DNA of 33,675 bases from Pseudomonadota bacterium (GCA_018830925.1 JAHJRK010000566.1:1-33675), one strand, 5' to 3'; positions 171 through 6,726 are shown, numbered from the stretch's first letter. Notes: generated by a model from the letters alone, not told the origin. Translations and numbers: made by a program.

Positions 171-185
171 TTATGCAAAGGTCTC
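171..185 (+). repeat. GCAAAGGTCTC dispersed motif, copy 1 (short)
   Basis: TTATGCAAAGGTCTC. Confidence 0.6.
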
Positions 186-393
186 ACTTTGATGAATGTC
201 CCCCCATTCGCCCCTATACTTTCTCGGAACAGTTTACATAAGGAAGCCGGATATTCAAACTCATCAATGATTATGACACCGATAATGTTTCAAAAAAAGT
301 GCTCCGGATTATAATGAGTTACACCGGTTATGTGAACCGTACCGTCTGGTATAAATGAATCGGCATATGATAATGAGGCCATCTGAAGAAGTA

Positions 394-442
394 AAATACA
401 AGTTAACGAAAAACGATTTTTGGGTAGTTGTGCAAAGGTCTC
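394..442 (+). repeat. GCAAAGGTCTC dispersed motif, copy 2
   Basis: AAATACAAGTTAACGAAAAACGATTTTTGGGTAGTTGTGCAAAGGTCTC. Confidence 0.75.
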
Positions 443-515
443 TAAATAAGACTTCAATAAAATCAATTCGCCTTTTATCCAGACAGCAACATTTGCCATT
501 ACAGAGGGGCATCAG

Positions 516-1721
516 ATGAAAGATCAATCCAAGACAAAACAAGAACTCCTCGTACAAAAAGCCATCAGTTTTATCTTATTAGTATCGGTTTTTTTGCTAT
601 TAAATATCCCTTTAAGCGTCATTGCAAAGGATAGTAAATATAAGACAACACCTTTATTAAATAATGGTAAGAAATGGCGGATAGGATATTACGAGGGAGG
701 GCCGTATATAAATTATCCGGCCAATTTGATAACCTTAGTTAAAGGCCTCAATGAACTTGGTTGGATGGGAGCTATCACTATTAATACAAAAAAAAATCCG
801 ACCGATTCAAGAGTGGTATGGGATGAGCTTTCTAAAGCAAAGAGCAAATATATTCAATTCGTTCCTGATGCCTATTGGTCTGCAAATTGGGACAAGACGG
901 TGCGGGTAAAAAATACTGAAAATGCTATAAAAAGACTTCAATCGGGAGATATCGATTTTATGGTTGCCATGGGAACCTGGGCGGGACAGGACTTGGCTAA
1001 CAATAATCACTCCGTTCCAACCATGGTAGTATCTGCAAGCGATCCGGTTCAATCCAACATTGTTAAAAGTGCCGAGGATTCAGGAAATGACCATGTCCAT
1101 GCAAAGTGTGACCCCACACGGTATATTAATCAGATCAAGCTGTTTCATAATATGTTTAACTTCAAAAAGTTAGGAATTGTTTATGAGAATTCGGTAGAAG
1201 GCCGGTCATATGCTGCAATAGCCGATGTGGAGAAAGTTGCCAAAGACAGGGGTTTTGAAATTGTCAAATGTGAAGCTCCTGCTTCCGGTGTTGAGGAAAA
1301 AGAGTCCGTAAAAGCGGTAATTCTTTGTCATGAGGAATTGGCGCCCAAGGTCGACGCCGTTTATGTTACGGTCCACAGGGGTATTGTCAGCGAGCACATG
1401 CCTGAAATTTTGGCGCCGTTATATAAGCACAAGATTCCTACCTTTTCCATGCGTGGTCCTGAAGAAGTTGAGAAAGGGGTGTTGTTGAGTATTTCCAGAG
1501 ACATGTTCGTATCAGTAGGAAAGTACCATGCAGGGATTATGGCTCGGATATTCAACGGAGCCAAACCAAGGGAACTGAATCAGATTTTTATGGATCCTAA
1601 AACAATTGTCGTCAATATTAAGACTGCTGAAATCATAGGGCATGTAATTCCACCAGCGTTTCTGAAAGTAACCGACAAAGTTTATAGCGGGGTTCATCCG
1701 GAGGTTAAAAGCCGGAATTAA
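516..1721 (+). CDS. ABC-type substrate-binding protein (PF04392-like), N-terminal signal/TM
   Basis: ORF; hydrophobic N-terminus; KWRIGYYEGGPYINYP...GDIDFMVAMGTWAGQDLANN...PTMVVSASDPVQSNIV resembles ABC sugar/Trp-type binding proteins; GGGG-containing RBS region upstream. Confidence 0.75.
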   Translation: MKDQSKTKQELLVQKAISFILLVSVFLLLNIPLSVIAKDSKYKTTPLLNNGKKWRIGYYEGGPYINYPANLITLVKGLNELGWMGAITINTKKNPTDSRVVWDELSKAKSKYIQFVPDAYWSANWDKTVRVKNTENAIKRLQSGDIDFMVAMGTWAGQDLANNNHSVPTMVVSASDPVQSNIVKSAEDSGNDHVHAKCDPTRYINQIKLFHNMFNFKKLGIVYENSVEGRSYAAIADVEKVAKDRGFEIVKCEAPASGVEEKESVKAVILCHEELAPKVDAVYVTVHRGIVSEHMPEILAPLYKHKIPTFSMRGPEEVEKGVLLSISRDMFVSVGKYHAGIMARIFNGAKPRELNQIFMDPKTIVVNIKTAEIIGHVIPPAFLKVTDKVYSGVHPEVKSRN

Positions 1722-1734
1722 TTGGGACACGTCC

Positions 1735-3096
1735 ATGAATTTGAATGTAAGAGAAAAGATATTTGTAATAGGATTGATCCTGTCACTGGTTGTTTTTTTG
1801 ACGATCAACGCAGTTTCGTATTGGAATACTAAGAGACATATCGAGAGCAGGGCAAATGTTGAAAAAACGCTCGTAATTATCTACGAGTTTGAAAATCTGA
1901 TTTCCTTGATTAAGGATGCCGAAACCGGGCAACGTGGATTTATTATAACAGGGGACCGGACTTTTCTTGAACCTTATTACAATGGCGTAACTTCAGTTTA
2001 TCAAAGTATGAGAAAACTGAAGGAGTTAATGCCGATCGATGCTCAGTCCCATCAAAAGCTTGATACTATTGAAGGGATGATAGAAAAGAGGTTTGCTCAA
2101 TTTCACAAAGCAATCGGCTTAAGAAAAAATGAAGGCATTGCGGTTGCAATAAAGTCATTCATGACTGCCGAAAATGAAAATGTAATGTTCGATATTCGAA
2201 ATTTGGTGGAGGGGTTGAAACGGGAGAAAACCGATTTGCTGCAGGGGCTGAATAGAATCTCCAAAGCAAGGAGTCAGCGTACACTTTTTACAATCTTTTT
2301 CGGAAATTTAATCGCTCTCCTGTTTGTTTTCTTTAGTTTGTTTCAGCTGTATCGAGACATAACCGAGGGCAAGCGGGTGGAGGAGGAGTTGAAAGCTTCT
2401 CAACAACAGTTACGCTCTCTTACCGGACGATTCGAAGAGATTCGCGAAGAAGAGAGGATCATAATTTCAAGGGAAATTCATGACATGATGGGCGGAGGAC
2501 TGACCGGATTGAAGCTTGATCTTTCATGGCTGATGAACAAGGTGAAAAATGCTGAATCAGATAACGGGCAAGCCGCTATGACGTGCAGAATTCTTTCATC
2601 GATTGAGTCCATAGATAAAATGATCAAGGTCACCCGCCGTATATCTACCGAGTTGCGGCCGCCTGTTCTGGATGATTTAGGTCTAATAGCCGCTCTGGAG
2701 TGGCAGTTGTCGGATTTCACAAGTCGCACAGGCGTTCTTCATAAGTTTACCACAGCTTATCAAAATGTAACCATAGAAAAGGACAAAGCCGTTGCCGTGT
2801 TTCGCATATCTCAGGAAATCCTCACCAACATTGCGCGACACTCAGAGGCAACAAAGGTTGTCGTTGCTTTACTGGAGGATGAGGAAAATTCTTTTCGGGA
2901 TGAAAATTTTATTCTCGAGATCAGGGATAACGGCCGTGGGATTAAAGAAGAGGAAATTCTGGATCCGAAAGCCCTTGGTTTGCTTGGCATGAAAGAACGT
3001 GCTCTATCTTTTGGAGGAAAATTCTTGATTTTTGGTCACCCCGGCGGAGGGACGTCCGTGACCGTTAAAATACCACGAAATCTGGGAGGACCGTAA
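1735..3096 (+). CDS. Sensor histidine kinase, CHASE3-like periplasmic domain, NarL-type HisKA_3/HATPase_c
   Basis: Two N-terminal TM segments flanking a helical domain with DAETGQRGFIITGD (CHASE3 hallmark); IISREIHDMMGGGLTGLKLDLSWL H-box; EIRDNGRGI and GLLGMKERALSFGGKF ATPase motifs. Confidence 0.9.
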   Translation: MNLNVREKIFVIGLILSLVVFLTINAVSYWNTKRHIESRANVEKTLVIIYEFENLISLIKDAETGQRGFIITGDRTFLEPYYNGVTSVYQSMRKLKELMPIDAQSHQKLDTIEGMIEKRFAQFHKAIGLRKNEGIAVAIKSFMTAENENVMFDIRNLVEGLKREKTDLLQGLNRISKARSQRTLFTIFFGNLIALLFVFFSLFQLYRDITEGKRVEEELKASQQQLRSLTGRFEEIREEERIIISREIHDMMGGGLTGLKLDLSWLMNKVKNAESDNGQAAMTCRILSSIESIDKMIKVTRRISTELRPPVLDDLGLIAALEWQLSDFTSRTGVLHKFTTAYQNVTIEKDKAVAVFRISQEILTNIARHSEATKVVVALLEDEENSFRDENFILEIRDNGRGIKEEEILDPKALGLLGMKERALSFGGKFLIFGHPGGGTSVTVKIPRNLGGP

Positions 3097-3725
3097 TGAT
3101 CAAAGTTATCATTGTTGATGACCATCCAGTGGTCAGGCGCGGCCTGAAGCAGATTATTGATGATGAACCGGATATGGATGTCGTCGGTGAAGCAGGAGAT
3201 GCCAGGGAATGTTTTGAGCTTGTACGAATGACGGACTGTAATCTTGTTGTCCTGGATATTACTCTGCCGGACTGGAGCGGTATAGATGTCCTGAATCAAT
3301 TGAAATATGAGAAACCGAACCTTCAGATCCTCATTCTGAGCGTTCTCCCGGAAGACCAGTATGGTTTGAGACTGATCAAAGCCGGCGCTTCAGGATATCT
3401 CATGAAAGAGAGCGCCCTGACAGAGCTCGTGAAGGCCATCAGAAAAGTGAGTTCGGGGGGCAAGTATGTCAGCGCAGTTCTCGCCGAGAGTATGCTCAGC
3501 CTGTCTGATGACTCTGAGGAGTTGCCATCTCACGAGAACCTTTCAAACCGGGAATATCAGATATTTTGCATGATTGCACAGGGAAAGTCACAGAAGAGCA
3601 TAGCCAGTATACTCCGTATCAGCGAAAAAACGGTCAGCACCTATCGCAGCCGCATCATGGGAAAAATGAAAATGAGCAATAATTCCGATCTGATACGCTA
3701 TGCTTTAGAACAACATCTCGTCTAA
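3096..3725 (+). CDS. NarL/FixJ (LuxR-type HTH) response regulator
   Basis: IIVDDHPVVRRGLK, phospho-Asp in NLVVLDITLPDWSG, C-terminal NLSNREYQIFCMIAQGKSQKSIASILRISEKTVSTYRSRI HTH; TAATG overlap with the kinase. Confidence 0.93.
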   Translation: MIKVIIVDDHPVVRRGLKQIIDDEPDMDVVGEAGDARECFELVRMTDCNLVVLDITLPDWSGIDVLNQLKYEKPNLQILILSVLPEDQYGLRLIKAGASGYLMKESALTELVKAIRKVSSGGKYVSAVLAESMLSLSDDSEELPSHENLSNREYQIFCMIAQGKSQKSIASILRISEKTVSTYRSRIMGKMKMSNNSDLIRYALEQHLV

Positions 3726-3762
3726 AATCATCGTTAAACATTCCTCGGATCACCATATTTCT

Positions 3763-3780
3763 TGTAGGGATATTCCTACA
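3763..3780. promoter_or_regulatory. Gac-box-like palindrome TGTAGG-N6-CCTACA
   Basis: TGTAGGGATATTCCTACA, 16 of 18 positions palindromic; compare Gac box TGTAAG-N6-CTTACA. Confidence 0.5.
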
Positions 3781-3854
3781 GAAAATATAAGGTTTATCTG
3801 ACAGGCAAACTCCCTGAATATGATATTATAAAAAGGATAATCTCAATAAATAAT

Positions 3855-3881
3855 AATTTTTAGGGTGTTGTGCAAAGGTCT
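3855..3881 (+). repeat. GCAAAGGTCTC dispersed motif, copy 3
   Basis: AATTTTTAGGGTGTTGTGCAAAGGTCT. Confidence 0.75.
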
Positions 3882-3931
3882 TGTTTTGTAATCGAGAGGG
3901 CGGAGCTTTGAGAGCTTTATTGAAAAATCTT

Positions 3932-3953
3932 ACAGATTCCGGATAATGACATT
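3932..3953 (+). repeat. 22-nt intergenic repeat, copy A
   Basis: ACAGATTCCGGATAATGACATT, 20/22 identical to 5337-5358. Confidence 0.65.
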
Positions 3954-4064
3954 CATATAAGTTTTAAAAGAATATCAGCAAGTAGAATGCAGTATATTTA
4001 TCAATATCCGCAAGAAAGGCTGGAAAATTGATAGAGGGATTTTTAATCAAATAGGATATTCAGC

Positions 4065-4301
4065 ATGACAGGAACCGTTGAAAATCAATATGACTCACAT
4101 TTCGAACTCAAGCAGAGGAAAGGTCTGGCTAAACTGGGTGTTGAAAAGAACGCCAATTGGCATGGCGATCCGAAGCGCCTTATCTTCGTGCTTTCCCGCT
4201 ACAAGTTTGTGGCAAAGATGCTTAGCGGAAAACAGAATGTATTGGAAATAGGCTGTGGTGATGCCTTTAACTCTTTGCCCCTTTCGGGGTATGGTGAGTA
4301 A
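4065..4301 (+). pseudogene. 3'-truncated class I SAM methyltransferase
   Basis: Methyltransferase N-terminus up to motif I (KQNVLEIGCGDAF), then unrelated residues and a stop; the rest of the catalytic domain is absent. Confidence 0.75.
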
Positions 4302-4348
4302 AAAAGAAGTTGCATAAAACAATTTTTGGATAGTTGTGAAAAGGTCTC
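4300..4348 (+). repeat. GCAAAGGTCTC dispersed motif, copy 4
   Basis: AAAAAAGAAGTTGCATAAAACAATTTTTGGATAGTTGTGAAAAGGTCTC. Confidence 0.75.
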
Positions 4349-4383
4349 CCGATATTCAATCTTCGGCTTTTCGGTTTTTCTTC

Positions 4384-4418
4384 AACCAGAAACTATGAAC
4401 CAGAAACCAGAGACTATT
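4384..4418 (+). repeat. Degenerate heptanucleotide tandem repeat, 5 units
   Basis: AACCAGA AACTATG AACCAGA AACCAGA GACTATT. Confidence 0.7.
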
Positions 4419-4465
4419 CTCTTATAGAATGATTAACCGGAATTTATGAGCGAGGGAAAATAAAC

Positions 4466-5302
4466 ATGGACGTTCAAAAAGAGCAACTCTATGATGATGA
4501 AATCGATCTGTTCGACCTTGTCAAGAAACTCTGGCGCTGGAAAAAAATGATTGTTGGAGTTACTTTGACATGTACAATCCTGATGTTTGGGATCTACTCC
4601 TTTTTCCCAAAAATTTACCGGGTAAATGCTATCATCGAACCCGGAACAAAGCTATTTTATAAGCAGAACGGACAAATGGCTTTTGAAGAGAAACCTATCG
4701 AGTCGCCTGTTTCAATTCGTGAAACAATTCTTGGGGGAGTTTTCGACAAAGAGATTGCAGACAAGTTAGCTTTAAATATATCAGATATTCCAAAAATCAA
4801 AGTTAAAATTCCTAAAGACACAAATCTATTGATATTTTCTCTGGAAAGCCATGACACTCAAAAAGGGATAGGCATCCTTAATGAACTTATATCCAAAGTC
4901 TCCGGTAACATTCAGACAAAGATTGATTTGGAAAAGCAACAGATTGAAAGCATGATCAAAACTGCTACGGAGCAGGTACTTCAAACCAGGAAGAAGATCG
5001 AGAGGTTGGAGGCCAGCCGAAAAGAAGCTATAGGCAATCAGCCCACCAATGCCATGTCTGTGCTCCTGTACTTCAATGAAATTAAGGAACATCAGATCTA
5101 TTTAAATGAACTTGAAGACAAGGTTATGAACTATCGTCACAGGAACGCAGATATCCGGGCAATCAGAATCCATTTGAATCCGACGGTCGAAGAGAATCCG
5201 GTTGGTCCTAAAAAATTCCTGGCAACCGCTGGAGCTTTCATTTTTTCATTGTTTGCCAGCATCGTTCTGGCATTAATCCTCGAGAAAGTCAGGTCAAAAT
5301 AA
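4466..5302 (+). CDS. Wzz-type chain-length determinant
   Basis: EIDLFDLVKKLWRWKKMIVG N-terminal TM, coiled-coil centre, C-terminal NPVGPKKFLATAGAFIFSLFASIVLALILEK second TM (Wzz topology). Confidence 0.88.
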   Translation: MDVQKEQLYDDEIDLFDLVKKLWRWKKMIVGVTLTCTILMFGIYSFFPKIYRVNAIIEPGTKLFYKQNGQMAFEEKPIESPVSIRETILGGVFDKEIADKLALNISDIPKIKVKIPKDTNLLIFSLESHDTQKGIGILNELISKVSGNIQTKIDLEKQQIESMIKTATEQVLQTRKKIERLEASRKEAIGNQPTNAMSVLLYFNEIKEHQIYLNELEDKVMNYRHRNADIRAIRIHLNPTVEENPVGPKKFLATAGAFIFSLFASIVLALILEKVRSK

Positions 5303-5336
5303 TTAAAGATTTTATGTAATGAACTTCATAAATATA

Positions 5337-5358
5337 ACAGATTTCGGATAATGGCATT
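5337..5358 (+). repeat. 22-nt intergenic repeat, copy B
   Basis: ACAGATTTCGGATAATGGCATT. Confidence 0.65.
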
Positions 5359-5403
5359 TGAATTCATCTTAAAACGCAACACACAACATTCAAAACAACC
5401 CTT

Positions 5404-6726
5404 ATGATCTTGGGAAACAAAAAAGGAGTTCTTGGAAACAATTTTTTAGGAATTATACAAAGGTCTCAACGCTTTCGCCGGCTTTCCAAGGAAGGCTTTT
5501 GGATTGTCTTAGGCCAGGCGATGTCTGTGGTGGGCTCGCTGATCGGTGTAAGGTTGCTTACAGAACTGCTGGATCCAGCGGCCTATGGTGAACTGGCTTT
5601 AGGAATGACTGTTGCCACCTTGGTCAATCAGGCTGTTCTGGGGCCTTTGAGCAATGGGGTAATGCGCTTTTATGCCCCGGCAGTGGAACAGGATGATTTT
5701 GGTAGCTATTTGAACGCAGTAAAACGTTTGGTTTTATCAGCGACAGGAGGCACTGCTATTTTAATACTGATAGTGGTTGCAGGATTGTTAATCGCTGATC
5801 AAACGAAAATGATCGGAATCGCAATTGCAGCATTCATTTTTGCTATTCTCAGTGGATACAACTCGATTCTCAGCGGAATACAGAATGCTGCTAGGCAAAG
5901 AGCCATCGTAGCACTTCATCAAGGAATGGAATCCTGGGCGCGGTTTCTGATTGCTGCCGGTTTGCTGATGTGGCTGAGCGCCACAAGCACGATGGCTATA
6001 GTCGGGTATGCTGTGGCAGCCGTACTGGTGCTTGGATCGCAGTATGTGTTCTTTAGCAGAATCGTTCCAAAAGATGTAACAGGCCAAAATAAAAAAGGAG
6101 CTTGGCAGAAAGAGATGTGGAATTTTTCATGGCCAATTTCAATCTTTGGCATGTTTACTTGGTTGCAACTTGTATCTGACCGTTGGGCACTGAATCTTTA
6201 TTCGACAGTACAAGATGTTGGTCTTTATGCGGTAGTCTTTCTTTTGGGGTATTATCCAATGTCAATAGTTACCGGTGTTGCGATGCAGTTTTTTGCTCCC
6301 ATCTTTTACAACCGAGCCGGTGATGCAAACGATAGCCTACGAACCGCAAATGTAAACAGACTGAGTTACTATCTAACCGGGTTGACACTGGCTGTGACGA
6401 GCTGTGCTTTTTTGTTGTCTTACTTGTTTCATATGAAAATATTTAGGCTTTTTGTGGCTAAGGAGTACGCGTCTGTATCTCATTTATTACCGTGGATGCT
6501 TCTTGCCGGTGGTCTGTTCGCTGCTGGTCAATCTATATCACTCAATCTTCAGAGCCAAATGAAAACGCGTATTATGATGGTGCCAAAAATCATTACAGCA
6601 TTGTTGGGTGTCTTTTTAAATATTGCAGGTGCCTATTTGTATGGCACTTCGGGTATAGTTATGGCAGGAGTCTTATTTTCTGCCTCGTATTTTCTTTGGA
6701 TGGCGGTGCTTTCGAAACGTAAATGA
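5404..6726 (+). CDS. Oligosaccharide flippase, Wzx/polysaccharide biosynthesis type
   Basis: About 12 hydrophobic segments; KEGFWIVLGQAMSVVGSLIGVRLLTELLDPAAYGELALG typical of MATE/Wzx. Start uncertain; the N-terminus overlaps a dispersed repeat. Confidence 0.87.
   Translation: MILGNKKGVLGNNFLGIIQRSQRFRRLSKEGFWIVLGQAMSVVGSLIGVRLLTELLDPAAYGELALGMTVATLVNQAVLGPLSNGVMRFYAPAVEQDDFGSYLNAVKRLVLSATGGTAILILIVVAGLLIADQTKMIGIAIAAFIFAILSGYNSILSGIQNAARQRAIVALHQGMESWARFLIAAGLLMWLSATSTMAIVGYAVAAVLVLGSQYVFFSRIVPKDVTGQNKKGAWQKEMWNFSWPISIFGMFTWLQLVSDRWALNLYSTVQDVGLYAVVFLLGYYPMSIVTGVAMQFFAPIFYNRAGDANDSLRTANVNRLSYYLTGLTLAVTSCAFLLSYLFHMKIFRLFVAKEYASVSHLLPWMLLAGGLFAAGQSISLNLQSQMKTRIMMVPKIITALLGVFLNIAGAYLYGTSGIVMAGVLFSASYFLWMAVLSKRK
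5419..5467 (+). repeat. GCAAAGGTCTC dispersed motif, copy 5 (inside the 5' end of the wzx ORF)
   Basis: AAAAAAGGAGTTCTTGGAAACAATTTTTTAGGAATTATACAAAGGTCTC; ungapped 49-nt alignment to copy 4. Confidence 0.65.

Follow-up and report, generated by a model that had tools for sequence, protein, structure and literature searches.

The first 5.5 kb of the 33,675-nt window contain five copies of a short motif, all in one orientation, and raise the question of whether these are ends of transposons, a family of miniature elements, or regulatory sites placed before polysaccharide genes. The window is the whole of one contig (C552) from the 3.17-Mb, 583-contig, 85%-complete genome of an uncultured Desulfobacteraceae bacterium. 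We consider it very likely that two families of non-autonomous IS5-type elements (MITEs), here called T1 (copy 1) and T2 (copies 2-5), have this motif as their right terminal inverted repeat. A regulatory role for copies 2-5 and their relatives would be secondary to this identity, and is favored by a strong orientation bias. The reading given in an earlier note on this DNA, which was made without database searches, is partly supported.

Copies of the motif and their edges

A search with TTGTGCAAAGGTCTC, allowing up to three mismatches, returns five matches in the window, all on the + strand (171-185, 428-442, 3868-3882, 4334-4348, and 5453-5467), while the shuffled window gives a mean of 1.07 and reaches five in 0/100 shuffles, confirming the five same-orientation copies first described. 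The longer motif AAACAATTTTNNGGNAGTTRTGCAAAG matches copies 2-5 only, with a chance expectation of 0.00. The consensus search of the host genome that the earlier note had proposed finds 84 tip sites (two or fewer mismatches), versus 2 for a reversed control pattern.

The right edge of all five copies reads (C)AAAGGTCT[C/T] on the same strand. The description of every copy as ending in GGTCTC holds for copies 1 and 2 only, which terminate in GCAAAGGTCTC, but not for copy 3 (GGTCTT), copy 4 (GAAAAGGTCTC), or copy 5 (TACAAAGGTCTC). Likewise, copies 2-5 do form one motif family (T2), but copy 1 has only its last ~16 nt in common with them and falls in a different subfamily (T1). The sharpness of the right edge is upheld: the downstream sides of 29 T2 loci lack common homology beginning at that edge, apart from self-overlaps of one contig and a promoter unit in L091/L099, and at copy 3 an alignment with a related locus restarts at 3883. 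Other downstream stretches common to T2 loci are unrelated repeats, such as T1.

The T1 family and its IS5-type relatives

Copy 1 is, by its tips and its likeness to an element in locus L004, a T1 MITE of the 188-bp class (1-185, + strand; left tip 1-13, right tip 170-185). The contig starts within the element, so that its first 3 bases (GAG) are missing; the left inverted repeat, clipped by the contig end, is ACCTTTGAAGAAC at window bases 1-13, and the window start ACCTTTGAAGAACGTCCA matches the left tip GAGACCTTTGAAGAACGTCCA. L004 holds a complete element of 188 bp, flanked on either side by ACAAT, to which copy 1 is near-identical. The claim that no opposite-orientation partner exists is therefore wrong for copy 1, whose partner was overlooked because the contig edge cuts the left tip, an example of how one half of a transposon can be concealed by the end of a contig.

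T1 elements are 141-234 bp long, mostly 142, 143, 165, or about 187 bp, and lack a transposase gene. Their terminal inverted repeats are imperfect and about 36 nt long, and the inverted tips are asymmetric (left GAGACCTTTGAAGAAC, right GAGACCTTTGCATAAC), the left tip being GAGACCTTTGAAGAACGTCCAATTTTGG and the right tip, read inward, GAGACCTTTGCATAACGCCCCCTTTTG. Many of the tips in the host genome occur as inverted pairs 130-190 bp apart, and the host and related MAGs together hold 65 distinct elements after removal of double counts. Exact 5-nt flank duplications accompany 33/95 entries, versus 0-5 at other lengths, or 22/64 distinct elements when double counts are removed. T1 thus has the features of a MITE (short length, absence of a transposase, inverted repeats, target duplication, and multiple dispersed copies), and its identification as a complete MITE of IS5 type is firm. 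Among named records, these repeats occur in MAGs of Desulfobacteraceae/Desulfobacterales, including Candidatus Desulfaltia, and in one Omnitrophota MAG. In the latter, a T1 MITE at L176 3873-4037 carries a GGTGG duplication, reflecting either horizontal spread or a mis-binned contig.

The right tip of T2 is found upstream of the start of IS5-type transposases. In G209 a T2-like right end runs into an inward-reading transposase start, MGFKKIDRKIGFAE, and in G036 ~165 nt separate the tip GAGACCTTTGCATAACTCC from the transposase start MGYKKMKKNLGFADFALASS downstream of it; in an IS5-family IS, the counterpart of the T2 right end is the segment that separates the tip from the start codon of the transposase. 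Matching tips occur in relatives, and the host genome contains IS5-type transposase fragments. One of these (L225 3854-4348) is the 164-aa N-terminal half of an IS5-type transposase with an open frame and a DUF772 domain (PF05598). Its homologues in three sister species (G001, G002, and G006) are 72-93% identical, it has plasmid homologues annotated as IS5-family transposases, and it is either a fossil or a domesticated gene.

The same tips are found in named elements. ISAba23 carries GAGACCTTTGCACGAA, and a Solidesulfovibrio IS5 element has GAGACCAATGCACA with an ATATC duplication. The tips of ISNme1 (GAGACCTTTGCAAAA), ISPg1 (GAGACCATTGCA and TTCAAAGGTCTC), and BrickBuilt (GAGACCTTTGCA) all belong to IS5 or IS5-related elements (PMC4596501). 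ISAba23, ISNme1, and ISPg1 share the terminal GAGACC(T/A)TTGCA with T1 and T2, and ISPg1 also shares the asymmetric TTCAAAGGTCTC end with T1; unlike T1 and T2, they are autonomous and transposase-bearing. The earlier note had proposed a search for an intact IS with these termini; named IS5 elements match at their tips, but a complete autonomous IS carrying both tips (GAGASCTTTGAARAAC and GAGASCTTTGCAYAAC) was not recovered. Multi-copy ISs frequently drop out of MAGs. A search for DDE_Tnp_1 in the host MAG gave no match, and in the loci examined from 59 relatives no PF01609 transposase has these tips on its flanks. The interpretation as an IS end or MITE is borne out by paired inverted tips, 5-bp target duplications, and the presence of the same tips in named IS5 elements and at the starts of IS5-family transposases. 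Both T1 and T2 would have been moved in trans by a transposase of the IS5 family, and T2 would have arisen by internal deletion of an IS5-family IS and is presumably old and mostly immobile.

Two described MITEs offer close comparisons. Like T1 and T2, BrickBuilt of Porphyromonas gingivalis is intergenic, has tips (GAGACCTTTGCA and TGCAAAGGTCTC) matched to the IS5-family ISPg1/ISPg9, and has degenerate or missing tips in many copies; its promoter activity has been measured (PMC4596501). It differs in its 23-nt tandem repeats, which are absent from the interiors of T1 and T2, and in its variable short target duplications, in contrast to the 5-bp duplications of T1, and T1 and T2 are hosted by Desulfobacteraceae. 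The small MITEAba12 of Acinetobacter has outward promoters and a tip that can fuse to the 5' ends of neighboring genes, giving the peptide MQQS (PMC6382973); here, ATGCAAAGGTCT gives MQRS. Unlike T1 and T2, it has GGCTTTGTTGCACAAA tips and 9-bp duplications and is moved by ISAba12. A literature search on IS5 MITEs in Desulfobacteraceae found no earlier description of the T1 and T2 families.

The T2 family and its copies in the window

Sequence-only models of the T2 right end (R1 and R2) find 11 strong copies in the host genome, more in the genus, and a few in other families. Aligned copies have in common a right block of ~55 nt with the terminus AAAGGTCTC, extending to ~160 nt in longer copies, and are about 75% identical to one another. 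The tip pair is GAGAGCTTTGAAAAAC and GAGACCTTTGCACAAC, the right tip also being given as GAGASCTTTGCAYAAC, and is homologous to the T1 pair, with the same asymmetry. Conservation is much stronger at the right end than at the left. Several copies show a left end, GAGAGCTTTGAAAAACTTAACAGATTCCGGATAATG; a paired inverted left end is seen in L083_1905, L086, L087, and L090, an isolated intact one in L278, and none was recognized in other copies. The reported absence of a partner for copies 2-5 therefore needs qualification, in that some copies have a degenerate left end and "solo or degenerate ends" is a fair description. None of the T2 copies, including the both-ended L086, L083_1905, and L090, showed a target duplication, which decay with age could explain. 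On some contigs T2 occurs in 3-4 copies of one orientation, while many others are single. The identification of T2 as IS5-type MITE ends, of a subfamily older than T1, is strong. No conserved pairs indicating an RNA structure or hairpin were detected in T2, and an Rfam scan and a plasmid search with the motif gave no match. A conserved leader peptide was rejected by eye, as frames and indels vary between copies, and so was a sigma-54 promoter, the GG-GC spacing being 8 rather than 10.

Copy 2 (388-442, + strand; R1/R2 E=2e-12 / 6e-14) lies 74 nt upstream of the ATG of an ABC substrate-binding protein gene (Pfam PF04392). Upstream of copy 3, and behind a LuxR-type response-regulator gene (3096-3725), is a unit consisting of a palindrome (TGTAGGGATWTTCCTACA) and a promoter-like site. 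The palindrome, TGTAGGGATATTCCTACA at 3763-3780, occurs in 5/10 genus genomes with at most one mismatch and is a candidate operator of a LuxR-type two-component system; beyond the window it is found at L258, L263, L264, and L265, and in G004 homologous response-regulator 3' ends are kept beside it (L269 and L270). The promoter-like site, CTGACA-N18-GATATT (3798-3827, + strand), was found by consensus scan only and is conserved together with the palindrome in related loci. T2 follows this unit in four loci at a similar distance.

Copy 3 (3822-3882, + strand; R1 E=1e-9) is a discrete block of ~61 nt. L268 aligns with the sequence on either side of it (3759-3821 and 3883-3977) but not with the T2 block, and the second alignment begins exactly one base past the copy; the block is therefore discrete, with its right edge exactly at 3882. 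It is followed by a T2-type left-end module, GAGAGCTTTATTGAAAAATCTTACAGATTCCGGATAATG (3910-3969, + strand; direct repeat D3), whose intact form, GAGAGCTTTGAAAAACTTAACAG, is present in L278. This module contains a promoter-like TTGAAA-N16-GATAAT (10/12 in a promoter scan). A 78-aa ORF (4065-4301, + strand) ending just before copy 4 has no Pfam match and, assigned by eye, appears to be what remains of the N-terminal part of a methyltransferase-like gene. A composite element with the truncated ORF (3910-4348) has both ends and no target duplication, and we do not claim it.

Copy 4 (4293-4348, + strand; R2 E=1.5e-10) has 79 nt in common with the L088 copy at 89% and lies 117 nt upstream of wzz, a Wzz-type chain-length determinant gene (4466-5302, + strand; PF02706). 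Between them, at 4381-4424, is an intergenic repeat, AACCAGAAACTATGAACCAGAAACCAGAGAC, also present in L085 and L268; the related CCAGAAACC occurs inside the 180-200-bp T1 class. A second, more decayed T2-type left-end module with TTCATA-N16-GATAAT (5325-5374, + strand; direct repeat D3 74%, promoter scan) precedes copy 5 (5412-5467, + strand; R2 E=4e-10). Copy 5 overlaps the 5' end of a flippase-like ORF (5404-6726), its tip being in frame as ...IIQRSQ..., and its wzz-T2 junction is also found in L090/L271. A tip providing ATGCAAAGG.. (MQR/MQS) as the start of, or in frame into, the downstream ORF is seen at L094 4577, L096 5591, and window 5404-5470.

Orientation of T2 and its possible causes

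The right tip of T2 faces the start of a co-directional right neighbor in 26/27 copies (p=4e-7), or on 19/20 contigs, based on simple ORF calls and with several copies sharing an operon or common ancestor. For T1, with double counts of its near-palindromic tips removed, the right neighbor is co-directional in 39/57 cases, a difference from T2 with Fisher p=0.004 when T2 is counted per copy and 0.017 per contig. Transposase-less IS5-related MITEs are ordinary mobile DNA; this orientation of T2 toward gene starts is the unusual part. The downstream genes, several of them assigned by eye, encode Wzz, flippase-like, glycosyltransferase, GalE-like, CysC-like, and sugar-transferase-like proteins, as well as the non-glycan AAA_14/DUF4143, PIN, HicB-like, YraN-like, and TA proteins; in L084, for example, a small hicB-like gene lies 50 nt downstream of a further copy. 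Separately, a 1434-bp element with tips GAGATCTTTGCATAA/GAGACCTTTGCACAA and AAAT on both sides (L072 87-1520) lacks a transposase and has an AAA_14/DUF4143 ATPase gene as its only gene; it resembles a mobile insertion cassette, and such elements could contribute to the spread of DUF4143 genes.

L268, a related locus, has both flanks of copy 3 and lacks T2. Judging from orientation and context only, T2 may have been kept as a mobile leader/promoter or as a gene-shuffling joint. We tentatively suggest that the surviving copies are exapted 5' leaders, in which the right end, an AT-rich leader, and the promoter-like module of the left end would feed the downstream gene. More broadly, T2 could possibly serve Desulfobacteraceae as a standard leader/promoter module, placed in a fixed orientation 5' of glycan and toxin-antitoxin genes that are shuffled horizontally, with a two-component-regulated promoter at some loci. 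Such a function would extend a known theme, because outward promoters and 5' fusions are known for MITEs of this kind (PMC6382973). It is somewhat less probable that copies 2-5 are neutral, decayed IS ends whose bias comes from sampling, through co-directional operons and common descent. In favor of this, the young T1 is biased in the same direction, more mildly (39:18), and the left neighbors of T2 are also mostly co-directional (20:6), but the 19:1 ratio of T2 by contig still differs from that of T1 (Fisher p=0.017), and the right end of T2 is much better preserved than the left.

Homologous-recombination joints that shuffle gene blocks of glycan islands, with orientation set by direct-repeat geometry, would be compatible with a MITE origin and are an unlikely, though not negligible, explanation. 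Upstream side and T2 are in common while the downstream gene differs in W_5467/L090 and W_3882/L091, and in L084/L098, where the upstream epimerase gene and T2 are 86-88% identical and the downstream genes unrelated. The clusters of 3-4 same-orientation copies per contig and the truncated ORF terminating at copy 4 also fit, but many copies are alone on their contig, copies with about 75% identity are rather divergent for homologous recombination to be efficient, and glycan loci vary anyway, so a break at T2 may be coincidence. Least probable, and in our view quite improbable, is that T2 is a dedicated cis-regulatory leader of glycan operons that recruits a NusG paralog and is not a MITE remnant. 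T2 presumably resembles the RfaH ops/JUMPstart element in being short, conserved, and oriented toward glycan operons, but no sequence relation was demonstrated, and T2 is built from a transposon tip, its last ~16 nt and edge being those of T1 and known IS5 elements. The near-uniform orientation, the many glycan genes downstream, the position in a predicted leader just behind the conserved palindrome promoter at four loci, and the two NusG-family genes of 7/10 genus members would agree with a dedicated leader; TA, AAA_14/DUF4143, PIN, and YraN-like genes downstream and the lack of a conserved RNA hairpin would not. A link to NusG was rejected, as two NusG genes occur in most genus members with no correlation with T2: G006 and G007 have a second NusG and no T2, and the host paralog is on a contig without T2. 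The second NusG-family gene lies at L253 1298-1822 and is present in most genus genomes.

The formerly unexplained motif is now assigned, very probably, to two IS5-type MITE families of little-studied relatives of sulfate reducers. Should the orientation bias of T2 have a functional basis, it would provide a clear natural case in which transposon tips are reused as expression leaders for surface-polysaccharide genes, and if the surviving copies are indeed exapted leaders, a mobile leader would wire newly acquired genes into expression.
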